A stretch of 64,000 nt of DNA from Pelodictyon luteolum DSM 273 (GTDB lineage Bacteria > Bacteroidota > Chlorobiia > Chlorobiales > Chlorobiaceae), in the NCBI RefSeq assembly GCF_000012485.1, contig NC_007512.1, positions 2,072,501-2,136,500 of the forward strand, given 5' to 3'. The notes under the pieces were generated by a model, which saw only the letters and a list, made by a program, of their open reading frames with translations, was not told the DNA's origin and searched no databases. Shown one piece after another: positions 8,071-21,882 of this stretch. A program made the position numbers and the translations under genes. How positions within the stretch are numbered: position 1 is the stretch's first letter; each line of letters begins with the position of its first letter.

Positions 8071-9377
8071 CGCTCTGTAAATAACTTTAAAGACTTCAAA
8101 TAAACCATAGCAATTAACATGATATATATCATAACCCCTGCAACCGAAAAGCCCACAACAGCATACAAATCGCTAGAATAAAAGTAATACCCCCACGCAA
8201 GGCCTAAGACTCTTAATAGAATACTGAGAACTTCAAACGCCAATAACATGCCCTGCATATGAAGAATAGGTATTGCAATCACAGCTGGCCGTGCAATAAA
8301 AAAAAAATAACTCATCAACGATAACCACTGCGCATACGCCCCTGCAACAACCCATTTATCGCCAAAAACAACTCCAAATATCCAAGGGCCAGCCAACACA
8401 ACAGTCCCAAAAGGGATTAAGCCGACACTTATCATTCCCTTTGTTGCCCGTATCAATAATTCCGATAAATCCTCAGCATTATTTTTTGCTTCTACAAGCC
8501 TTGGATACAATACATCTGTTACAGAGCTGCCTATCAATTGCGAAGGCAAGCCTAGCACTGATTTCCCAAGCGCATAGAACCCAGCTGCAGCGGGGCTGAA
8601 AAACGATGCAAGCATGAGAACCGGAAGCGACTGCGAAAAGGCATTAATAAAAACCTGTGGGGCGCGGTAGAGGGGGAAATCATAATACTGCCGAGCAAGC
8701 GCTTTTAGATGAGCTATATCAAACTGAAATACAGCAAATCTCTTCTCTCCTCCTGCTCCACGGATTCCTAGTCCCAGCAATGTACTGTACACAAGGCTAC
8801 TCAAAATGGCTCTTGCAATCAGAACCCCTGCTATGGGTTTATAGAGCCCAACTCCAACTGTCGCCGAATTCAAGAACAGCGTCTGAAGAATATTTGCCCT
8901 CGCGGTCAGCTTGAACTGTTTTTTTCTTATCACCCACTGACTATACACCTGCAACACTGCTCCAAAAAACACAGCTACTGGAACAAGGAGCAGATAATCA
9001 CGGATTGCCTCACCACCGCCAACAAGGGGCAGAAGCAGATCATCAGCGAGAATCAGAACAATTCCGATGATAAAGGAAATCACCAGCGCAATCAGAACTG
9101 ACAGTTGACCAATTCCACGCGCATCAGCGTCATCTTTAGGAAGTACAATGGCAATCGGATACATCAGTGCACCGACTGGTACTAAAATACCCGTAAAAGC
9201 CATAAACACCCCAAGTACTCCATACGCTTCCGGCCCGTACAAACGCGTAATGAAAGGAGCGAACAGCATCCCCAATGCCTGGGCCCCAGCTGTTCCACCT
9301 GCCACAACGGCAACATTTTTTACAAAACTGCTTTTCCTCAGACGATCTGTCACGCCAAGTACATCGGCGAATGTCAT
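8067..9377 (-). CDS. Polysaccharide flippase (Wzx-like, MOP superfamily)
   Basis: 436-residue integral membrane protein with about 12 hydrophobic segments, starting after a short basic cytoplasmic N-terminus (RKSSFVKNVAVVAGGTAGAQAL). The opening GGTAGAQALGMLFAPFITRLYGPEAYG is typical of O-antigen flippases, which carry undecaprenyl-linked repeat units across the inner membrane. It is the first gene of the minus-strand block 9.4-0 kb; the accessory island begins directly upstream. Family confidence is high, substrate unknown. Confidence 0.9.
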   Translation of the reverse strand: MTFADVLGVTDRLRKSSFVKNVAVVAGGTAGAQALGMLFAPFITRLYGPEAYGVLGVFMAFTGILVPVGALMYPIAIVLPKDDADARGIGQLSVLIALVISFIIGIVLILADDLLLPLVGGGEAIRDYLLLVPVAVFFGAVLQVYSQWVIRKKQFKLTARANILQTLFLNSATVGVGLYKPIAGVLIARAILSSLVYSTLLGLGIRGAGGEKRFAVFQFDIAHLKALARQYYDFPLYRAPQVFINAFSQSLPVLMLASFFSPAAAGFYALGKSVLGLPSQLIGSSVTDVLYPRLVEAKNNAEDLSELLIRATKGMISVGLIPFGTVVLAGPWIFGVVFGDKWVVAGAYAQWLSLMSYFFFIARPAVIAIPILHMQGMLLAFEVLSILLRVLGLAWGYYFYSSDLYAVVGFSVAGVMIYIMLIAMVYLKSLKLFTER

Positions 9378-9469
9378 TCTTATGGTCTCGTGATTACAAT
9401 CGTTCGAAAAAGAAATATATTATACGCATAAGACCATCCTTAAGTCCGCTAATGCACAGACTGACGTAT

Positions 9470-9574
9470 GAACAGCCGGGGTCCGAACAGCCGGGGTCCG
9501 AACAGCCGGGGTCCGAACAGCCGGGGTCCGAACAGCCGGGGTCCGAACAGCCGGGGTCCGAACAGCCGGGGTCC
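9470..9574. repeat. Seven perfect tandem copies of a 15-bp repeat
   Basis: Unit GAACAGCCGGGGTCC repeated seven times with no mismatch. A further copy of its core lies at about 9640-9653, and the reverse complement core at about 9723-9735. No spacers, so it is not CRISPR. It lies in the gap between the flippase start and a HicA-like gene. Perfect identity suggests recent expansion by slippage. Confidence 0.97.
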
Positions 9575-9758
9575 GGTGAAGCTTTCGTGATGCTGCATAC
9601 GGGGACGGACGGACTTAGGCTGTTCCCCTTACGTAAGTAACAGCCGGGGTCCGCTGGAACTATGGTGATGCTGCCTACGGGGTCCGATGGGGCTTAGGCG
9701 ATGCTGCATACAGGGACGGACGGACCCCGGCTGCTCTTTACGTCAACTACGGACTAAT
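9575..9758. repeat. Intergenic dispersed repeat, copy A
   Basis: Contains two rounds of GATGCTGCATAC/CTGCATACGGGGACGGACGGAC followed by GGCTGTTC- or GGCTGCTC-like sequence and TACGTCAACTAC. Related sequence occurs at 13834-13924 and 14795-14850, with a shorter resemblance near 11135-11160. No gene is seen in it. Confidence 0.7.
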
Positions 9759-10052
9759 TCACTCAAGACTTAAGCCACGATCAAACAAAACACGTTCATA
9801 TATTTTCTGATCCATAGTGCAGTCCACCAGTTCAAGAAATTCGGGAGTCGTCAATTTGCACTGCCTGGCCATAAAACTGAGCAGATCTCCGCCAATCGTT
9901 TTAGGTTTGCCCCCCAAACTCACCTTGGTTTTTACCAGGGTTTTCTTTCCGGCCAGCGAATAATAGTAGTAATACTTATGATCGGTAACGCGGCATGTAA
10001 ACCCTTTCCGTTCCAGCGCCCCTTCAATCTGCCTTTTTTCACGAACCGCCAT
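9759..10052 (-). CDS. Small HicA-like protein (possible toxin)
   Basis: 97 residues. The pattern ALERKGFTCRVTDHKYYYYY, basic KTLVKTKVSLGGKPK, then MARQCKLTTPEFLELVDC resembles small HicA/dsRBD-like proteins in which a conserved His sits in a beta strand; here that would be H24 in DHKYYYYY. The match is by eye and weak. It begins 9 bp after the stop of a 348-residue gene on the same strand, an arrangement like a two-gene toxin-antitoxin operon. An alternative is an RNA-binding accessory protein. Confidence 0.6.
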   Translation of the reverse strand: MAVREKRQIEGALERKGFTCRVTDHKYYYYYSLAGKKTLVKTKVSLGGKPKTIGGDLLSFMARQCKLTTPEFLELVDCTMDQKIYERVLFDRGLSLE

Positions 10053-10061
10053 GCTTACCAG

Positions 10062-11108
10062 TCACTCCTTTATGCGATCCCGCATCAAGCGTTTTACGTT
10101 TCGTGCGCCTTCGGTCAGCATCGCATCATCTTCCTTTCCGTACTCAATCCAATTTGCAACCACTTGCTCCTGCAATTCCGAAAGAAGCTGCTCTCGGGTG
10201 GCGGCAATGACCTCTATATTCCACTGTTCGTCAAGCAGCATAAGATACTGCGAGCTTTCCGTCAGCTCCGGGGAAAGCACTAAGGGAGGGTCGATCGAGA
10301 GTTTTCCTCCCGGGTACTCAACTTCCGATACTTCAAAATCAGACATATCCAAAGGCTCGATTGACTCCACATCATGGATTCGAACAGGCAAATCGCCAGC
10401 ATCAACAGAAACAGTGCCCGTAACTTGTACCAACCCTCTTCTTGCAGCTAACAACTCAGGCTCCCAATCAACATCGTAAACGCATTCAAGTTCTCGATTA
10501 TTCTCTGGATACAGTATGGTAATCCGTCGGCCTGCAAATTCCATTGCCTGAAGATAACCGGTAATCGTTTGGCTTACCCTTTCCTGATGACGAAGCCTCT
10601 CACGAATTGTATTGATCTTTCCCACATCAACGCCTGACAACGATACAACCGGCTGACCCGGGCCACTGATTGCAAGCTTCCATGGCTGTCCTGCCTTCGG
10701 AACAAGTGTCTGGAATGCATTAAGTAACCGTAGACGATAATGAGGGTTTCGTACCTTCAAAAAAGGCTGGTCTTCAGAATCATGCAGACCACGCAGACAA
10801 TCATGCAATGTCTCAATAACTGGCGTTACCTCCTCGATAGAACCAGCCTCAGTATAGCTGCCAACGGTCATTGGCAGTTGATAGCTACCGGCCGTTGGAA
10901 TCCAGCACCGCACCGGGAACATCTTCTGTATGGCTTTGGGAATGTAGCCTGAAGAAACCGACTGCTCATTCCGGGCATCCATCGCCAAAACAAAGACAGC
11001 CCTTTGAAATCCCTGAAGAGCTGCCGATAGAACTTCAGCATCAACCATCGGCTCATCGTGTGGGCCGGATATTCTTAACTCAAGTGAAGGAAGATTTCTC
11101 GGCATCAT
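10062..11108 (-). CDS. Uncharacterised protein, partner of the HicA-like gene
   Basis: 348 residues, family not recognised, no membrane helix or signal peptide. An N-terminal half (residues 1-140) is followed by a region of short beta-strands (GLVQVTGTVSVDAGDLPVRI). A C-terminal segment from about residue 275 (SSQYLMLLDEQWNIEVIAATREQL) loosely resembles small HicB/DUF2442-type folds, ending in a basic helix. It is upstream of, and closely spaced with, the 97-residue gene. Function unknown; the pairing suggests antitoxin or regulator plus effector. Confidence 0.7.
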   Translation of the reverse strand: MMPRNLPSLELRISGPHDEPMVDAEVLSAALQGFQRAVFVLAMDARNEQSVSSGYIPKAIQKMFPVRCWIPTAGSYQLPMTVGSYTEAGSIEEVTPVIETLHDCLRGLHDSEDQPFLKVRNPHYRLRLLNAFQTLVPKAGQPWKLAISGPGQPVVSLSGVDVGKINTIRERLRHQERVSQTITGYLQAMEFAGRRITILYPENNRELECVYDVDWEPELLAARRGLVQVTGTVSVDAGDLPVRIHDVESIEPLDMSDFEVSEVEYPGGKLSIDPPLVLSPELTESSQYLMLLDEQWNIEVIAATREQLLSELQEQVVANWIEYGKEDDAMLTEGARNVKRLMRDRIKE

Positions 11109-11160: not shown

Positions 11161-11886
11161 TCAAGAGCAATGCTCTCGTTGCGTCGTACGCTCAAAGTCA
11201 CCCCTGTTCGGCTGAACCCCGAGACGGTTCCACCGGATTTCCCGCCGACGCCAGTGCTCTCCGATCGACTGCAGGAACCCGGGCTGCACCAGTTTGGCAC
11301 GAAGCTCAAGCCACCCGTTCCGTTCCTTCCTGATGACGAGCCCTTCGGGGCCCCCCGGACGGCAGGCGCTTTCGGCTTTGGCAAGCATGCCCTTCAGCTC
11401 CGCTATGGTAAAGTTTCCCTCAACAAGCTGAGGAACCGTTTCGATACCCATCCGATGGCAGAGTTCGTCGCGGCGGGCCGTGCTCATAAACGCCTGATGT
11501 TCGAGATCGTAGATATCAAACGCATTGAACCAGTCGGACAGGCGGCTGTACTCGAGACTGTGGCACGCGGCACACCACTCGCCGAAGAGCATGCAGTGCG
11601 GGGGAAGTACCCTGAACCCTTCCTGATGCAGGGCCATCCATGCATCGAGGCGTGTAAACTGTCCCCGGAAGGGGCGATGCAGATAGCTGCCCCGGTTCTG
11701 GACCCGTATCCCTTCCGGGCCATGGGAAAAACCGATGTTAGCACCATCAAGCTTCTCTTCGACAACAACCGGGCCATCAAGCATCGCTTGCGATTCGTCC
11801 TCAGAGAGCACCTTGTCGTCGCGCGGCTTTCCCTCCCCCAGCCATATCAGATGCGGCGTATGGGGAAAACGGAAAAAGGTGTTCAT
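11161..11886 (-). CDS. ATP-dependent RNA ligase family protein
   Basis: 241 residues, nucleotidyltransferase superfamily. Motif I EEKLDGANIGFS places the adenylated lysine at K45; motif III is FGEWCAACHS, motif IV GPEGLVIRKE, motif V ELRAKLV. These are the RNA-ligase core; there is no DNA-ligase OB domain of the usual size. It would reseal nicked RNA. The start ATG overlaps the stop of the upstream PIN-domain gene by four bases (11883-11886), so the two are translationally coupled. RNA cleavage plus RNA ligation in one operon suggests damage and repair of the same RNA. Confidence 0.85.
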   Translation of the reverse strand: MNTFFRFPHTPHLIWLGEGKPRDDKVLSEDESQAMLDGPVVVEEKLDGANIGFSHGPEGIRVQNRGSYLHRPFRGQFTRLDAWMALHQEGFRVLPPHCMLFGEWCAACHSLEYSRLSDWFNAFDIYDLEHQAFMSTARRDELCHRMGIETVPQLVEGNFTIAELKGMLAKAESACRPGGPEGLVIRKERNGWLELRAKLVQPGFLQSIGEHWRRREIRWNRLGVQPNRGDFERTTQREHCS

Positions 11887-12428
11887 CGTTGCTTCCGCTC
11901 TTTCTTTGCTTTCTTATCTTCGTATTTGGCCCGACTCCACACTTCAATCACTGCCTCCAACTCTACACCCCTCGCCTCAAGCGTATCCTGCCAGCCGTGC
12001 CAGTCGCTGTCAGCGGCAAATGCGATGGCACAAGAACTTGTGAGGGCATAAGCTTCAAGTGCGACAGCAACCATTTTCCTGTCCGCACGGTCATGCACGA
12101 CCCGCTGCAGCTCTTCGTCAAGTATGGCGTATCCATCACTATCACAGGAGATATCAACCATATCACAGCATGCGGTATCAAGTTTCTCCAGATAGACCAG
12201 CATGCCGAAATCCCCATGGCAAAGATGGCGGCGATACTCCTCCTCAATCATCCAGGTACTGTCGATGACCATCCTTGATGAAGAACGCCTGAAGTCTTCG
12301 AGCCACTGCCATACCCGCTGACGTAAGGCTGGATCGTCGGGCATCGCGCACACAGCCGTCAATGAGGAAAGATTCAAAGAACTTGCTGCAATAAAGACGT
12401 TGGTGTCGATTACATAGCGGGCTTTCAT
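11883..12428 (-). CDS. PIN-domain ribonuclease-like protein
   Basis: 181 residues. N-terminal RYVIDTNVFIAAS puts the first metal-binding Asp at residue 8. Later acidic positions are MVIDSTWMIEEEY, VVHDRADRKMVAVALEA and AADSDWHGW, consistent with a complete PIN active site. PIN proteins cut single-stranded RNA or tRNA. Its ATG overlaps the original stop of the ATPase gene (12425-12428) and its own stop overlaps the RNA ligase start, so the three genes form one coupled operon. The C-terminus is very basic (KYEDKKAKKERKQR). Confidence 0.82.
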   Translation of the reverse strand: MKARYVIDTNVFIAASSLNLSSLTAVCAMPDDPALRQRVWQWLEDFRRSSSRMVIDSTWMIEEEYRRHLCHGDFGMLVYLEKLDTACCDMVDISCDSDGYAILDEELQRVVHDRADRKMVAVALEAYALTSSCAIAFAADSDWHGWQDTLEARGVELEAVIEVWSRAKYEDKKAKKERKQR

Positions 12429-12517
12429 TGCACAGAACGCTCTTGCTTTTGCCGTTCAAAAAGCAGACGCGCCTGCTCACGGGCATCACCGAGAGCATCC
12501 CCAAAAAAGTGTTCGGG

Positions 12518-13744
12518 TCAGTGGCCGATACGCCCATAACCATCTAGCTCAAGGTGCACCAGTTCGGCATCAGCTCCTTTTCTTTCCACGAAATAGAGCC
12601 GGCAATCATTCTCTCTGGCAACTTGCCGAGCCACCATGGTCTGCAGGCGCCTGAACAGATGCTCGGAATGGGTTTCAACAAGAAACTGGATCTGCCGTTG
12701 CTGGCTGACTTCGACAAAGAGCTCTGATAGCACTGCCTGCGCAAGCGGGTGCAGATGGATCTCCGGCTCTTCAAGGATGATGGTCGATCCCTTAGGAACA
12801 AAGAATGCCAGAGTCACCACTGGCAGGACCTGCGATACACCGATGCCAACATCGCGGAGATTTGCATCGACGCCGTCCCTATGGACAACAATCTCGTAGC
12901 GGGTTGAGCGGCCAAGCTGGCGGACTTCGATACTATCGGCGACTCCCATCCTGTTCAGCCAGTGGGACACGCTTTCGATAATAGCTCCCTTCCCCTCATC
13001 CTTTGCGGGAGCCAGAGCACTGGATAGCAGCACATCGACAACCCGGCTGCCATCGATACCGATATCGCCCGGCATGGTACCGTTCCAGACATAGTCGCGC
13101 TCGGGCTTTCGACGTAAAGGTCCCAGATAGGTAATCGATTCAATCTGGCGACGAATGGCAAGGCTGATGTCCTCGGCTTTCTTCCCATCAACACCCAGAA
13201 GTGAAACAGCTTCGGGAGAAAGCGCTATGGAACGTTGGGGCGCATAGAGTCGGCTTTTCCCCCTCGGCTGCGGCTCCTGTCCAACAAACGCCGAATAGGC
13301 ACCACGATCTCGACGCACCAGACGGAATAAAACATCCTCTCCCGAAATGCTCATCTCCTGCACCACCGCAGCTTTCAGGGAGGTTTTCCCGTAGCTTGCG
13401 CTGAATGCACCATTCTGCACCCATGCGGCAGGACTCTCTTGCCTGTCAACATTGCCGTTTTTATGAAACTCGAAACCAATATCGAATCGGTTCGACGAAG
13501 CATTACGGCTCATCACATCATCGAAATGGCCGAAATTGAAATAATCGCTCACCTCATTGCCGCCGAGGTTAAGATGGACTGTCCTGTCCGGCGAAACCAC
13601 AGTCTGCTTGAGCAGGAGCAGAGCCTGGAAAATCGACGATTTGCCAGAGGAGTTGGTACCAAGAAAAACGGTAAGCGGCTTCAGCTCTATACTGATGCTC
13701 TGGCGCCATGCCTTGAAATGCTTCAATCTCAAGAGATCAAACAC
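12518..13744 (-). CDS. AAA ATPase, DUF3696 family, cut short by a TGA codon
   Basis: 408 residues of an SMC/RecF-like ATPase: Walker A LGTNSSGKSS at residues 28-37, signature-like DVGIGVSQVLPV, Walker B TIILEEPEIHLHP, switch His in FLVETHSEHLFRRL. The frame stops at TGA (12518-12520) after GRIGH. The same frame stays open for 30 more codons, PEHFFGDALGDAREQ to QERSVQ, and ends at a TGA overlapping the PIN gene ATG by four bases. W-P-E-x-F-F-G-D is the expected DUF3696 C-terminus, so a TGG Trp codon has become TGA. The intact gene would be 12425-13744 (439 residues). Confidence 0.88.
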   Translation of the reverse strand: MFDLLRLKHFKAWRQSISIELKPLTVFLGTNSSGKSSIFQALLLLKQTVVSPDRTVHLNLGGNEVSDYFNFGHFDDVMSRNASSNRFDIGFEFHKNGNVDRQESPAAWVQNGAFSASYGKTSLKAAVVQEMSISGEDVLFRLVRRDRGAYSAFVGQEPQPRGKSRLYAPQRSIALSPEAVSLLGVDGKKAEDISLAIRRQIESITYLGPLRRKPERDYVWNGTMPGDIGIDGSRVVDVLLSSALAPAKDEGKGAIIESVSHWLNRMGVADSIEVRQLGRSTRYEIVVHRDGVDANLRDVGIGVSQVLPVVTLAFFVPKGSTIILEEPEIHLHPLAQAVLSELFVEVSQQRQIQFLVETHSEHLFRRLQTMVARQVARENDCRLYFVERKGADAELVHLELDGYGRIGH

Positions 13745-13924: not shown

Positions 13925-14355
13925 TTATGAGGTAAAACTGCCCGAAACAGGTCTAACGACATTGAGTTCCCCGAGACTCTTGAACCCGCCATCCTCCGCA
14001 AAGAAAGACATGAGGACCCTCGAGCGAAAGGCAACAGGCTGCTTGAAGTGCATCGGGGGTCTTCAATCTGGAATGTGCCCGAATCTTGGCGGCACGTTCC
14101 AGAACTGGACGGGTAAGCTCTACCTGCAGCAAGCCTGCCGCTTGAAAAAAATCATCATAGCGTCGAAGCAAAAGGTTATCGTTTCGACGTAGAGGGAGCA
14201 CACGACATTCAAGAATCGTCAAAGCGCTGAAGGGCAAGAACGGCATCAGAACAGGCCTCAAACTCAGAGATGATTGCCTGTTTCACTTTTGCAGCAAGGT
14301 GGCCGTCCCCTTCAATGAGATAGATGAGCACATTGCTGTCGAGAAAAACGATCAT
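13925..14355 (-). pseudogene. VapC-like PIN toxin, two frameshifts
   Basis: Three frames together read as one VapC. From the ATG at 14353-14355: MIVFLDSNVLIYLIEGDGH to ACSDAVLALQ. A second frame continues ALTILECRVLPLRRNDNLLLRRYDDF to KTPDALQAACCLSLEG. A third ends FFAEDGGFKSLGELNVV with a stop at 13925-13927. Each break falls where the family runs straight through. The ATG overlaps the antitoxin stop (ATGA), the normal VapBC arrangement. The toxin should be inactive. Confidence 0.8.
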
Positions 14356-15349: not shown

Positions 15350-15769
15350 TCAACACTCCCACGGGTTGACTACTGCGACACTCAAGTCGCTGAAGTGGCG
15401 GATATTTCGTGTAGCAATCGTAGCACTATTGGCCAAAGCAATGCCTGCAATAAAGGTATCACGCATATCTATAGGCCGACCGGCTTCTTTTCGTTCAGCC
15501 GCCAACAGGGCTGCCGCTTTAGCAGCATCGGCATCAAAGAGAAGGATGCGGTGCTGCATTTCATCACTCAATAGCTCTTCAAATCGATTTTCCAGCAAGC
15601 TTTTTCGCTGGCCCGATGGTAAGAGAGCCAAACCATATCGGGCTTCAAACAGGGTAATGCTAGAGAGCCAGATTGATTCAGAGGGCTGACTGTCCACCCA
15701 TTTCACAACCTTCGGGTCGGGCTGCTGCTGCATCAAAGCCGAAAGCACATTGGTGTCAAGAATGATCAT
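15350..15769 (-). CDS. FitB/VapC-type PIN-domain toxin
   Basis: 139 residues, complete. MIILDTNVLSALMQ gives the first active-site Asp at residue 4; the middle Glu is in SSITLFEARYGLALL; the late acidic pair is IDMRDTFIAGIA, followed by TIATRNIRHF and the typical VVNPWE ending of FitB proteins. PIN toxins of this group cleave RNA and are held inactive by FitA on operator DNA. The ATG overlaps the FitA stop by four bases. No defect is seen. Confidence 0.92.
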   Translation of the reverse strand: MIILDTNVLSALMQQQPDPKVVKWVDSQPSESIWLSSITLFEARYGLALLPSGQRKSLLENRFEELLSDEMQHRILLFDADAAKAAALLAAERKEAGRPIDMRDTFIAGIALANSATIATRNIRHFSDLSVAVVNPWEC

Positions 15770-16005
15770 TCAACAAAGCCCATTGGCTCAATTGTCTGAC
15801 CGTGCAGTTCCGGAAGTGGTCCCTGCAAACCAACACCTGCAAAACGGGCAGCAATCCTAGAGCCAAGCATTTGGCGTTTTGGTGAAGTTTCAGTGACCGC
15901 ACTGCGCAATATCTGGTATACTTCCTCCTCAAGGCTACGGCCATGCTGGCTGGCGCGGACTGCAAGACGGATTTTCAAATCCTCTTCAATATTGCGGATA
16001 ATCAT
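15766..16005 (-). CDS. FitA-like ribbon-helix-helix antitoxin
   Basis: 79 residues. N-terminal RHH fold: IIRNIEEDLKIRLAVRASQHGRSLEEEVYQILRSAV, shown here only for its key parts (IIRNI beta strand, GRSLEEEVYQIL helix). The C-terminal part (GPLPELHGQTIEPMGFVE) would block the toxin active site. It would bind its own promoter, in the gap 16006-16155, as a FitAB complex. Paired with FitB through an ATGA overlap. Confidence 0.9.
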   Translation of the reverse strand: MIIRNIEEDLKIRLAVRASQHGRSLEEEVYQILRSAVTETSPKRQMLGSRIAARFAGVGLQGPLPELHGQTIEPMGFVE

Positions 16006-16691: not shown

Positions 16692-17532
16692 TCAAAGCTC
16701 TATCTGAAAACGGGGTGCGAACAATAGCCCGCTCACACGCGCCGACACCATGCCTTCAACCCGCAAGACGCGGTGCGCATCCTTCTCTATGTCATGGACA
16801 TGCAGGAGCACCTTGCCCGCCCTGCTGCGCCGCAGCGAATAGGGTTCGACCAGCCGCCGGCTGAGGGTCCCGTTCAGGGCCCGGTAGTCGATTTCGACGC
16901 ACATGCGGGGCATGCTGTCGATAGAGATGGATGACGTCATAGAGGTCGCGCGGCCGGGTCCGATCCCCCAGCGCCCGGACTTTTTCACCGAAAACCTCGG
17001 CATAGGAGTATGCCAGCACACGGATACCCTCTCGAGGCATATCGCTGTATGGATGCAGAACCGGCATCCGCTGAGGCTCCTCGACCACGCACTCGTCTGC
17101 ACTCAAGTCAATCTTGATGCGTGGAAGGTTTTTCCCGGTCGGAGAAATCGGGCCCCGATAGGAGAGTTTTCCCTGGCAGACAAGTTTGCCTCGTGGATTC
17201 CTGTACAGCTCGATAGACTGCATGGCCTCAGGAAATTCGATACCGGTCTCATCATAGATCCAGCGCCCGAGTGAGGCCAGGATTTTCCGAAGAAAGCCTT
17301 CATCAAGATGCGCCGGATCAAGCAGCGTGAAATCGAGATCCTCTGAAAACCGATAGGTCTCGAACAGGCATTTCTTCAGGCAGGTCCCCCCTTTGAACAC
17401 CCAGGAATCCGCAACCTCTTCCTGACTGGCAAGTCCGGCAAGCACCCAGCCAAGAACATAGTCCTTCTCGACAACATGAGGCGAGAGCGATACGCGTGAG
17501 GCCATATCAAGGAGTTCCGCACGTCCGATCAT
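16692..17532 (-). pseudogene. AbiEii-type nucleotidyltransferase toxin, deleted and frameshifted
   Basis: The first ~225 residues are a good AbiEii/AbiGii (DUF1814) toxin: VEKDYVLGWVLAG, motif I WVFKGGTCLKK, motif II RFSEDLDFTLL, KIDLSADE, RPRDLYDVIHLYR. Then the frame turns into a Pro/Arg-rich tail ending at 16792. The next frame, from MPRMCVEIDYRALNG through RRLVEPYSLRRSRAGKV to LFAPRFQIEL (stop near 16692), is the WYL-like C-terminal domain such proteins carry. The segment between is missing. So there is an internal deletion with a frameshift at about 16910; the toxin is probably dead. Confidence 0.75.
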
Positions 17533-18347
17533 CGCTCGCCCCTCTTCAGCCAGTGCTCCGGAACACGGAGGCGCCAGCGGCTGACGACCTTGGGACAGGG
17601 CGCTCCCGGGTCGAGCCTAGCGAGACCCTGCGTCATGCGCAGATGGGCTTCACGCGGCAACTGGCCGGCAAGAGGGTTGCCCTCAAGCAGGAATCCGAGC
17701 CGTTTGAAAACAGCTCCGTTGCCCAGGCGCAGGGCGTACTCCAGCAAGGCTCCGTCATCACGGTCCGGATGAGCGAGATAGGACTGCAGACAATCTGCGA
17801 CATGCTGCACCCCGCCGCCAATCTCCGGCAGGGCGAGCATATCGACAATGGTACGCGGCACATCAGAGACCATGACGCGGGTACGGTGCCGCCAGACCGG
17901 TCGCAGTCCGAACAGGTGGCCTTCAGGAACATGCGTCAGCAAAAACCGGGCTCCATGAGCACTCAGCTCTTTCCTGCCGACCCGCCTTGCGCTCAGCACG
18001 ACAATGTCGGTGAAAATCTGCTCGGTCAGGTCCCAATGCTCGGCGGCAGTCCGACCACCGATATAGGCCGGAGCGAACAGTTCGGGAACAAGAACCCATG
18101 GATCGTCAAGAACCTGCGCCTTGCCGAGCGACTCCAGCGGCACCGGAACATACCGGCCGGGACCCACCCGGCTAAGCCAGCCCTGCTCCCTCCATCGCGA
18201 CAACTGCTGCACCGCGGCCTTTCGCGACATCCCCAGAACAGCGACGGCGTCATCGATGGCAATAACATCACCGCCTGCCGCAACCAATCTGGCCAGCAAA
18301 GCCTTCTTTCCCTTCGGAACGGCTGATAGAGAAGCCTGTACCATCAT
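17529..18347 (-). CDS. AbiEi-type antitoxin (first copy)
   Basis: 272 residues. N-terminal winged helix (GGDVIAIDDAVAVLGMSRKAAVQQLSRW; key parts LGMSRKAAVQQL and WLSRVGPGRYVPVPL), then the AbiEi C-terminal domain with VPELFAPAYIGGRTAAEHW and VSDVPRTIVDMLALPE. AbiEi represses its own promoter and counters the AbiEii nucleotidyltransferase. It overlaps the toxin start by four bases. Complete, unlike its toxin. Confidence 0.88.
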   Translation of the reverse strand: MMVQASLSAVPKGKKALLARLVAAGGDVIAIDDAVAVLGMSRKAAVQQLSRWREQGWLSRVGPGRYVPVPLESLGKAQVLDDPWVLVPELFAPAYIGGRTAAEHWDLTEQIFTDIVVLSARRVGRKELSAHGARFLLTHVPEGHLFGLRPVWRHRTRVMVSDVPRTIVDMLALPEIGGGVQHVADCLQSYLAHPDRDDGALLEYALRLGNGAVFKRLGFLLEGNPLAGQLPREAHLRMTQGLARLDPGAPCPKVVSRWRLRVPEHWLKRGER

Positions 18348-18371
18348 CGGACAAAAACCTGGTGTACGTAT

Positions 18372-18653
18372 TCATCGACCACTTACATACACCAAGATAC
18401 AATAAAAACGCAAATAATGCGATTTTTTAGTCCCAGAGTATACTGGGCAGAGAATCACATCGGATAGATCGGAAGCCGGGTCTGGCCATGCACGGAACCA
18501 CTCGGGCAGGGTGGGTTTTACCCCCTCATTTACTCCGCCATTGAGGAGCCAGGCAAGGACATAGTCCCGCTCGATGACACTCTCAAGAATGCGCCGCCCT
18601 CCAGTGCGCATAAGTCCGTTTGCTACGAGGGAGATGTTGCGTTGCGGGATCAT
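18372..18653 (-). pseudogene. AbiEii toxin remnant, N-terminus only (second copy)
   Basis: The first ~37 residues (MIPQRNISLVANGLMRTGG, SVIERDYVLAWLL) match the AbiEii start. After that the frame runs into unrelated sequence that includes GGVNEGVK, echoing the AlbA remnant at 16440. No GGT or SED motif is left. The ATG overlaps the stop of the antitoxin gene by four bases, as in an intact locus. Confidence 0.75.
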
Positions 18654-19468
18654 CAGCTGCTCCTCACCATGTCAAGCTCTTCCTCACTCACATTCAACTG
18701 CAGCCTCCATCGCGCCAACGAAGATCCCTCTTGAGGAAGCAGCGGATCAAGGCGCTGATAGGTATCGGTGAGGCTCTCACGCAAAGGCTGCAACACATCC
18801 TCTTCAGCCATTCCGTAGTATTCAAGCAGGTAACCGAGCCGGCGGACAACCGCCCCGACATCCAGCTGAAGAGCGTACTGTACAAGCTGGCTGCTGTTGA
18901 TTGCCTCCCTGCGCATCCACATGGCCTTGGCCACTTCGGTGATACCGCCCGAGAAATCGGGGCGGCGGAGGCAGTCAACAATGGTGCGTTCCCTATCGCT
19001 CACGATGACGAATCGTTCCTTGTCGACCCAATACTTCATGACACCGAAGAACTGTTCTGGACGCAACTGCACAAATCGGAAATCATAGCCACCGACCGCT
19101 TTGACACGAAGGCGCCGCGTACAGGAAACGGTGATGGTAAGGCTCGGCTGTGTCACCATGCGATGCAACTCCATCGCACTGCCATGCGAGATGAAGTAGG
19201 GAGCCTCACCGGCCAGCTCGCGCGCAATGATGTATGGACTGTCGACATGTTCGGTTGCCCGGCCGAGCTCAAAGGGCACCAGGCAGAAGAGCCCGGGCTT
19301 GAGTCGCGTCACAACGCCCCGCTGCTGTGCTTTGTGCACCAGACTTCGTGAAGCTGAAGCGCTAAGGCCGGTGATAGCGGCTACATCACCCAATGTGAAT
19401 GTAGGCCGCTGCCGTTCATGCAATCCGGTGAGAAGTTGAGCAACCCGGGGCCCGAGAGTTTTGGCCAT
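18653..19468 (-). CDS. AbiEi-type antitoxin (second copy)
   Basis: 271 residues, same family as 17529-18347 but clearly diverged. Winged helix LGDVAAITGLSASASRSLVHK, with VTRLKPGLFCLVPFELG; C-terminal domain with SPYIIARELAGEAPYFISHGSAMELH, REQ-type FRFVQLRPEQFF and VSDRERTIVDCLRRPD. Ends with an ATGA overlap to a toxin of which only the first ~37 codons remain. Complete antitoxin without a functional toxin. Confidence 0.88.
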   Translation of the reverse strand: MAKTLGPRVAQLLTGLHERQRPTFTLGDVAAITGLSASASRSLVHKAQQRGVVTRLKPGLFCLVPFELGRATEHVDSPYIIARELAGEAPYFISHGSAMELHRMVTQPSLTITVSCTRRLRVKAVGGYDFRFVQLRPEQFFGVMKYWVDKERFVIVSDRERTIVDCLRRPDFSGGITEVAKAMWMRREAINSSQLVQYALQLDVGAVVRRLGYLLEYYGMAEEDVLQPLRESLTDTYQRLDPLLPQEGSSLARWRLQLNVSEEELDMVRSS

Positions 19469-19932
19469 TACATGATATTTTTTGGTCTATTCGTTACCCA
19501 TAAAGGAACGAAACCACCAAAAAATATCAATATCCGCAATACATGTTGTTTATGTGCGCAGCCGTTCTTGCCGACGGTGGCGGAAGTATCAAGAGGCTTT
19601 CCTGACGCTATGGATGGTCCGTGGCAGGATTCCTTATGCGCTTTCTGCAGCTCGTCAGAAAAAACCGCACTCATAAGCGGCAATGATATCGAGCACCTCC
19701 GCATAAAACATATCCCGCACGGAATCAGTGCGTCCCAACTTCAGTACCTTCCGGTATTCCCTGGTTTTTTTACGGAGTATGCCAGCCAGTCGTCATAGAG
19801 CGCTATAGCGACCACGCCGGCAGCGAGCATGGTCGACAATGCGAGACCCGACTGCAACAAGGCACCGATATCCAACAAATACCTATATTGCCCCTACGAA
19901 CACCGTACTTCCAGAGAAAAAAACGCGCCTGC
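19469..19932. other. Gap with a short membrane-like remnant
   Basis: No convincing gene. On the minus strand, about 19757-19893, a 45-codon open stretch reads LLQSGLALSTMLAAGVVAIA then YDDWLAYSVKK and stops; it looks like the C-terminus of a lost membrane protein. The longer open frames here have no family-like features. This gap holds the promoter of the recombinase gene. Confidence 0.4.
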
Positions 19933-21882
19933 ATGCAGAAAAGCGACGAGACACGCCAACGGTTCCTGGAGCTGATCGAACGGCTCGACGGGGCCTATGC
20001 ACCCAATACCATCCGGGCATACCGTGCCGATATGGAGGAGTTCATCGGGTACTGTGACCTGCACGGCCTCCCTGCCCTTCCGGCCGAGCCCTCAACCATC
20101 GCCCGGTTTCTGGAGAGTGTCACCGACATCGGCATCAAGAGCAGCTCCATCAGAAGAAAATCCTGCTCGATCAGCATCATCCACCAGCTCAGCGACCTTG
20201 AAGACCCGACGAAGAGTGAGGCGGTGAAGATCGCCCTGCGGAAAGTCTACCGAAAACTCGGGCGGCGGTTCACAGAAGCCCGGCCCATCACCCGCCCCAT
20301 GCTTGAAGCGATGCTTCCGGAGCCGGAGGGCGACCTTCGCTCGAAACGCGACCGCGCCCTGCTCCTCATCGCCTATGACAGCCTGCGACGCCGTCAGGAG
20401 CTCACCAGCCTCCGCACGGAAGACATCGCCTATCATGAGGACTTCGCCATCGTGCAGCTCCGTAAAAACAAAGACGACCGCCTCTCTACCGGCCACTGGA
20501 TCCGACTCGGAAACGAGGCCACCCTTGCCCTGAAAGCATGGCTGGATGCTGCCGGAATCGAGGAGGGCTACATCATCCGCGGCGTTACGAACAAGGGAGA
20601 GATAAGCGCGGAGCTCGGCGCTCGCCAGATAGGCCGCATCGTCAACCGCCTTGCCCGTGCCGCCGGGTTCGACGCGGAGATGGTGCAATCAATCAGCAGC
20701 AACTCCCTCCGCATCGGCGGCGCCCAGGACCTGCTCCGCAGCGGAGCGACATTCGCCCAGATCATGCAGAAAGGCGGCTGGGATAAAACCGACACCCTCC
20801 TGCGCTATCTGGAACGGACCCGCCAGCCTGGCATGATCTGCGAAGAGGGCTCGCCATACAGGACGGCAGCGGGCGGAGAGGAAGACATTGGGGACGAAGC
20901 AGACAACGGGGAGAAGTGTTCATGCCCCGGATACCGGGACACTCTTGCACGCCGGCGGTTCCAGTCGACGCTTGAGCAGATGGAAGGGGCGTACGCTCCC
21001 GGCACCCTCGTCGGCTACCACTCCGGCATGGAGTCGTTCATCCGCTACTGTGAAGAACACCGCCTGGCGGCCCTTCCCGCCTCGCCGATGACGGTCGCGG
21101 ACTTTATCGGGAGCCTTTCGGAAAGCGGCATGAAAAGCCGCACCATCCAGAAGAAAGTCGAAGCCATCAGCGTCTTCCACCGGCTCGGCGACCACGACGA
21201 TCCCACCAGAGCCTCATATACGCGCATCGCCATGCGGAAAGTCTACCGCAAGCTCGGCCGTCAGGCCCGGCAGGCATACGGCATCACCCGTCCCATGCTG
21301 GAAGGGATGATGCAGGCTGCCGGAGACAGAGGCATACACACCCTCTGCGACCGGGCCCTGCTTCTTCTGGCGTACGACAGCCTGCGCCGCCGTCAGGAAC
21401 TTGTAGGACTCAGGATAGAGGATCTTGAGTACACGGAGGACGGCGCAGTCCTGCTGCTCCGCAAAAGCAAGACGGACCAGTACGGCGTCGGCCACTGGAT
21501 CCACCTCAACCCCGAAACCGCTTGTACCCTGAAGGCGTGGATTGAGGCCGCAGGCCTTACGGAGGGGTTCATTCTCCGCACCATCGACCGGAAAGGCGAA
21601 ATCAAAACACCACTCCGCACCGAAGAGATCTCGGCGATCTATAAACGGCTGGCCGAAGCGGCCGGTCTGGATGCCGCCATCGTCGGCCGCATCAGCAGCC
21701 ACTCCATGCGGGTAGGGGCCGCCCAGGACATGCTCAATAGCGGCGCAACCCTTACCGAGATCATGCAGAAAGGGGGATGGATGAAATCCGATACCGTCAT
21801 GCGCTATATCGACCGTACCCGCCCTCCGGGGCTTGTCTGCGAGGACGAAGAAACAAAGCCCCGATGTGGAGAGGATGACTGA
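19933..21882 (+). CDS. Tandem-fused double tyrosine recombinase
   Basis: 649 residues from the ATG at 19933 (an upstream TTG at 19888 would add 15). Two full-length phage-integrase-type units in one frame: residues ~5-300 and ~335-632, joined by an acidic linker with a CSCPGY motif. Each has a SAM-like N-terminal domain (AYAPNTIRAYRADMEEFI / AYAPGTLVGYHSGMESFI) and a catalytic domain. Unit 2 has the whole active site: R486 (SLRRRQEL), K511/K513, H590-x-x-R593 (SSHSMRVG), W616, Y625. Unit 1 has R153, K178/K180, R260, W283, Y292 but Asn257 where the box-II His should be (SSNSLRIG). It is the only plus-strand gene between 0 and 30 kb. Confidence 0.9.
   Translation: MQKSDETRQRFLELIERLDGAYAPNTIRAYRADMEEFIGYCDLHGLPALPAEPSTIARFLESVTDIGIKSSSIRRKSCSISIIHQLSDLEDPTKSEAVKIALRKVYRKLGRRFTEARPITRPMLEAMLPEPEGDLRSKRDRALLLIAYDSLRRRQELTSLRTEDIAYHEDFAIVQLRKNKDDRLSTGHWIRLGNEATLALKAWLDAAGIEEGYIIRGVTNKGEISAELGARQIGRIVNRLARAAGFDAEMVQSISSNSLRIGGAQDLLRSGATFAQIMQKGGWDKTDTLLRYLERTRQPGMICEEGSPYRTAAGGEEDIGDEADNGEKCSCPGYRDTLARRRFQSTLEQMEGAYAPGTLVGYHSGMESFIRYCEEHRLAALPASPMTVADFIGSLSESGMKSRTIQKKVEAISVFHRLGDHDDPTRASYTRIAMRKVYRKLGRQARQAYGITRPMLEGMMQAAGDRGIHTLCDRALLLLAYDSLRRRQELVGLRIEDLEYTEDGAVLLLRKSKTDQYGVGHWIHLNPETACTLKAWIEAAGLTEGFILRTIDRKGEIKTPLRTEEISAIYKRLAEAAGLDAAIVGRISSHSMRVGAAQDMLNSGATLTEIMQKGGWMKSDTVMRYIDRTRPPGLVCEDEETKPRCGEDD

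Follow-up and report, generated by a model that had tools for sequence, protein, structure and literature searches.

The window, the 64,000-nt stretch of the Pelodictyon luteolum DSM 273 genome that was analyzed, carries on its minus strand the genes of an ATPase, a PIN protein and an RNA ligase. Together they may form a mobile defense-type cassette in which the candidate system HEC-03 (ATPase plus PIN protein) is joined by the ligase, that is, an ATPase-gated PIN ribonuclease with built-in resealing (probability a little below one half, about 0.48). This reading is carried by the gene order, the active sites and folds of the PIN protein and the ligase, the wide conservation, the coupled divergence within subtypes and the defense neighborhood, and it predicts the activities, the target and the role of the ligase.

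Organization of the Locus

The following features were assigned to the cassette.

11161..11886, minus strand: RNA ligase (PF09414), stand-alone nucleotidyltransferase core, 241 aa
11883..12428, minus strand: PIN-fold predicted RNase (HEC-03A-like), acidic site intact, 181 aa
12425..12517, minus strand: C-terminal remainder of the ATPase frame past the stop, which on read-through would share an ATGA with the start of the PIN gene
12518..12520, minus strand: in-frame TGA in the ATPase at the conserved Trp of NWPExFFGD, located by alignment with intact relatives
12518..13744, minus strand: DUF3696 AAA_15-type ABC ATPase (HEC-03B-like), shortened ORF of 408 aa with a GTG start

A preliminary description had placed the three genes on one strand with two ATGA overlaps, and this arrangement was recovered at 11161–13744. 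The PIN and ligase genes, both intact in the window, overlap by ATGA at 11883–11886. The ATPase and PIN genes share an ATGA at 12425–12428 if the TGA is read through, and are separated by an 89-bp gap as the sequence stands. One PIN match and one ligase match were found in the genome.

When the TGA was read through for the search, the ATPase matched AAA_15 (2e-25), AAA_21 (6e-22) and DUF3696 (1e-10) in Pfam, in agreement with its earlier assignment to DUF3696, and HEC-03B in PADLOC (2e-88). Walker A (GTNSSGKS), Walker B (ILEEPEIHLHP), GIGVSQ and ETHSEH were present, with the signature and the H-loop intact. The Trp of NWPExFFGD is kept in the intact relatives aligned and is replaced by TGA in the window, so the window ATPase is probably impaired, or else the TGA base is a sequence error.

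The PIN Protein and the RNA Ligase

The PIN protein had no significant match to a Pfam PIN family, and a hit to TRS130_4HB fell under the cut-off and was disregarded. HEC-03A was the sole PADLOC model matched, and weakly so (2e-11, 42 bits). Searches of solved structures with the single sequence or a profile returned no usable match. The complete acidic site described earlier is in place (D8-T-N, E64, D113xxD116-RK and D140xDW), and D8TN, E64, D113xxD116 and W143 are common to 25 PIN homologues. The structure model (mean pLDDT 96) adopted the PIN fold. Foldseek alone gave a weak result and VIA-align a clear one: of the 50 rows listed, almost all were PIN-domain proteins, the best match among them being VapC21 (Z 10.0, rmsd 2.8, 122 aligned), and HARP (Z 7.2, rmsd 3.7, 124 aligned), SMG6 and Nob1 also appeared. 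The modeled fold suggests that the PIN protein cuts RNA.

The ligase matched PF09414 (RNA_ligase, 2e-29) and none of the PADLOC models. All the nucleotidyltransferase motifs attributed to it previously (I, III, IIIa, IV and V) were found, the active-site sequences being EEK45xDG, FGE, FDxYD, EGxVI and, for motif V, RxK. Its model (pLDDT 89, with a low-confidence tail) was closest to the Naegleria RNA ligase (8e-9), followed by archaeal Rnl3-type and T4 Rnl2-type enzymes. Whereas well-studied RNA ligases have accessory domains, the 241-aa protein is a core domain that lacks the N- or C-terminal class domains of Rnl2, Rnl3 and Rnl5. The Rnl3 model TIGR01209 gave only 14 bits (cut-off 136.9).

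Recurrence of the Three Genes

The preliminary description had made its interpretation dependent on whether the three families co-occur elsewhere, and they do so in a fixed order more often than expected by chance. In a ligase-anchored scan with one genome per species, the best 80 loci comprised 62 ATPase–PIN–ligase trios, all in the same order, together with 14 PIN–ligase pairs (three of them at a contig end), three ligases alone and one ligase behind PD-T4-4. The PIN gene lay directly upstream of the ligase in 76 of these 80 loci, often with a 4-base overlap. More distant plasmid ligases (about 26–32% identity), whose neighbors differ and include an AAA ATPase and a potassium channel, were left uncounted. 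Since this sample had been picked via the ligase, a second one was anchored on the PIN gene; it comprised 32 loci from four groups, the window, the center genomes and fragments being left out. Trios in the same order made up 25 of the 32, and the other seven were ATPase–PIN pairs with no ligase beside them, a share that may in reality be larger because the PIN profile was built from mostly ligase-linked PINs. An unlinked ligase occurred elsewhere in one of the seven genomes with a ligase-free pair. Since one ligase-free locus (L124) also sits deep among ligase-bearing PINs on the tree, the ligase seems to be dispensable at times. Downstream of another ligase-free pair, directly 3' of it, tandem repeats with a GTYVPR-like translation were seen (L116:1813-2370).

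Trios were found in Pseudomonadota, Verrucomicrobiota and Thermodesulfobacteriota, in other genomes of the window's genus, and on an Actinomycetota plasmid. The plasmid-borne trios belong to Aeromonas, Tistrella, Azotobacter and Rhodococcus. Protein BLAST for the PIN protein in plasmids returned nothing, although PIN genes do adjoin plasmid ligases, because the PIN family is too divergent for a single-sequence search. Within the window's genus the cassette is patchy (6 of 36 other genomes). Two relatives in the genus carry decayed copies of the window's subtype: L112 (G034) has a PIN gene at the contig end and a ligase remnant with a stop, and L114 (G020) has an internal stop in the PIN gene.

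Wherever the PIN-anchored samples contained an intact PIN gene with complete flanking sequence, the ATPase, the ligase or both adjoined it. That the PIN is never alone there, and that the cassette occurs on plasmids, would suit an addiction-type pair kept as a selfish element, the ligase being an enzymatic antidote that offsets only a leaky PIN, but seven of the 32 PIN loci have no adjoining ligase and the ATPase and PIN are strongly tied (r 0.88), which makes this very improbable.

Divergence of the Cassette and the Place of the Ligase

Distances of the ATPase and the PIN protein were correlated at r 0.88, and those of the ligase with either at about 0.3. The low values for the ligase arise from a deep split of the ATPase and PIN into two subtypes that the ligase ignores. 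Identities of the ATPase and the PIN protein are 61% and 55% inside a subtype and 33% and 25% across the split; the ligases, a set of close relatives only, which narrows its range, are 61% identical within the subtypes and likewise between them. Strict three-gene co-evolution across the whole family was thereby ruled out. Inside each subtype all three proteins co-diverge, with r 0.76–0.87 in the large subtype and 0.42–0.61 in the small subtype, and every value exceeded those of the permutations. Because it does not track the subtype split, the ligase need not contact the ATPase or the PIN protein.

The ligase was also found next to other defense-type genes. In L047:3831-6738 it lies directly 3' of PD-T4-4_A (7e-203) and PD-T4-4_B (2e-93), with a DUF3800 gene (PDC-M04A) next; in L063 it stands after a GmrSD-like gene and before a PLD-helicase-like gene; and in L061:3697-5649 it is followed by a Schlafen AlbA_2/HATPase_c_4 protein. 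Because it is common to both ATPase–PIN subtypes and adjoins PD-T4-4, GmrSD-like and Schlafen-like genes, the ligase appears from sequence comparison to behave as a portable module and not as a strictly co-evolved third subunit. A broader proposal, which we put forward tentatively and with some doubt, is that the cassette provides self-reversing RNA-cutting immunity, with an ATPase-gated PIN protein and its own ligase, and that several unrelated defense nucleases (two HEC-03 subtypes, PD-T4-4, GmrSD-like and Schlafen-like) have acquired this ligase as a portable repair module, which would make their damage reversible.

The same observations could be explained if the defense unit were the ATPase and PIN (HEC-03) only and the ligase a general RNA-repair passenger found near many defense genes, with no particular action on PIN products. 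Such a passenger could be equally similar within and between subtypes, could adjoin the unrelated genes listed above and could be missing from some HEC-03 loci, as is observed. However, its fixed place directly behind the PIN gene in 76 of 80 loci, often with the 4-base overlap, its coupled divergence inside the subtypes and its retention with the PIN alone after loss of the ATPase speak against a passenger, which we regard as unlikely.

Loss of the ATPase

On the midpoint-rooted PIN tree, the PIN–ligase pairs without an ATPase cluster as a single group (support 100/98) among the trio PINs, and most of them adjoin a gspA-like gene. In one Burkholderiales clade the PIN and ligase were kept under purifying selection after the ATPase had been lost (dN/dS mostly 0.04–0.3), as would be expected if the ligase tolerated or balanced the nuclease. 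In one Burkholderiales genus the PIN gene occurs in 22 of 42 genomes, 15–17 times as an ATPase-less pair and four times with a shrunken ATPase. The ATPase-less clade, found mostly at one chromosomal site, looks vertically inherited and more housekeeping-like. Four trio-like loci (L137, L138, L140 and L141) have an ATPase of <300 residues from the start codon with an altered Walker B, and they form a group separate from the ATPase-less pairs.

These pairs bear on a further explanation, namely that the PIN protein and ligase constitute an RNA-processing unit that cuts and then joins or circularizes RNA, as proposed for HARP and Rnl3 (PMC12153264), with the ATPase as a regulator and defense secondary or absent. 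The purifying selection on ATPase-free pairs, their mostly single chromosomal site and their presence in 15–17 of the 42 genomes agree with it, as do the HARP–Rnl3 precedent and the resemblance of the PIN model to HARP (Z 7.2). Most loci, however, retain the ATPase, are patchy and lie beside defense genes; the PIN protein has no HARP family match, and the Rnl3 score of the ligase is 14 bits against a cut-off of 136.9. We regard a processing unit as unlikely.

Defense Neighborhood

The nearest upstream genes of 53 trios included nine DrmMI/type IIG-like genes, three Argonaute genes, two type I specificity genes and two HmaB genes, counts that may overlap. Beside the ATPase-less pairs such a defense neighbor was found in one of 25, a set that spans both sides. 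The preliminary description had derived a defense role from gene types and island context, and this context is supported by the HEC-03 match together with the restriction/DISARM-type, Argonaute and Hma genes upstream. A supposed RtcR, an RNA-repair regulator, upstream of two trios was rejected; such proteins score above the cut-off for NorR and far below it for RtcR.

In the window itself, the cassette lies in an island with the following genes outside the system.

15350-16005, minus strand: FitAB/VapBC-like pair
16792-17532, minus strand: AbiEii, its match confined to the N-terminal half of the best model
17529-18347, minus strand: AbiEi
19888..21882, plus strand: phage-integrase family protein

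A second AbiEi gene is located within 16792-19468 on the minus strand, with no AbiEii called beside it, and a truncated PIN-domain (VapC-like) remnant lies near the cassette at 13953-14261 (minus). Just 3' of the ligase, also on the minus strand, are two genes with no Pfam or PADLOC match, at 10062-11108 (348 aa) and 9759-10052 (97 aa, HicA-like by eye). A short tandem repeat at 9275-9640, with EQPGS repeated in translation, separates a polysaccharide gene from the island.

Proposed Mechanism

Immune nucleases that act on the RNA of their host must spare healthy cells. In the ATPase-gated reading that we prefer, the DUF3696 ATPase would probably sense infection and hold or release the PIN protein, by comparison with PARIS and related ATPase–nuclease systems. 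Judging from its fold and active site, the PIN protein would then cut an RNA of the cell, with tRNA or rRNA as the likeliest target, and the ligase, as its family suggests, would reseal the cut RNA. Leaky or brief activation could thus be reversed, and growth would stop only under sustained infection. The earlier reading of the three genes as an RNA damage-and-repair defense system stands as far as the co-occurrence of the families and their defense context go; it has to be modified in that the ligase is portable and not a strict subunit, and in that the window ATPase is probably impaired by its stop.

RNase P-type PIN enzymes leave 5'-phosphate and 3'-OH ends. The trio contains no kinase or phosphatase gene, which would fit if its PIN protein left the same ends. 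VapC toxin products are reported to carry 5'-OH ends (PMC6459853), and such ends could not be sealed by an ATP-dependent ligase alone. These ends speak against the preferred reading, as do the loci that lack the ligase, the indifference of the ligase to the subtype split, the housekeeping-like ATPase-less clade and the missing accessory domains of the ligase.

If the proposed mechanism is true, a ligase of its own means that recovery is built into some abortive defenses, and the reversibility of growth arrest becomes directly testable. The natural variants, with or without the ligase, with or without the ATPase, and in two subtypes with a common ligase, are ready-made controls.

Comparison with Known Systems

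The cassette resembles VapBC in the PIN fold with its acidic site. The preliminary description had considered that the PIN protein might be an antitoxin-bound VapC with another partner; no small VapB-type DNA-binding antitoxin gene was found beside it, its neighbors being the ATPase and/or the ligase. The ATPase also matches the NsnB model of Menshen (1e-59), more weakly than HEC-03B. Menshen carries DUF262 and predicted OLD-type proteins (PMC10952713), partners that are absent from the window cassette, in which neither the PIN protein nor the ligase matched NsnA or NsnC at E up to 0.1 and no DUF262 match was found.

PrrC, a tRNA nuclease linked to an ATPase, offers a parallel in that an RNA ligase repairs the cut it makes. 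That ligase is encoded by the phage (T4 Pnk–Rnl1) and acts with a kinase (PMC12409363), whereas here the ligase is part of the cassette. HARP has in common with the cassette a PIN nuclease gene that adjoins an RNA ligase gene, Rnl3 (PMC12153264), but the PIN and ligase families are others and there is no ATPase; the PIN protein had no sequence match to the HARP family, and the likeness is in fold only. PARIS is also a pair of ABC-type ATPase and nuclease (AriA–AriB), in which AriB cuts tRNA (PMC12409363). Its effector is a Toprim protein and it has no ligase, whereas the window effector is a PIN protein; the AriA model scored far below HEC-03B, and in the PADLOC search no AriB-type effector was found, the PIN protein matching HEC-03A only.

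The closest system is HEC-03, a Hma-embedded candidate in PADLOC, whose HEC-03B and HEC-03A models are matched by the adjacent ATPase and PIN protein of the window. The ATPase–PIN half is therefore not new, and the earlier statement that no described system with this trio was known holds for the ligase-bearing form, as far as PADLOC and the literature searched show. In that literature no paper on the trio and no validation of HEC-03 itself were found; an earlier mention elsewhere is possible. The locus nearest to the HEC-03 models (L131, HEC-03A 7e-76) has no ligase beside its pair. HEC-03 has no ligase model in PADLOC, whereas the window cassette has a ligase, and a system that is listed but barely described thus gains a gene missed by current detection models.
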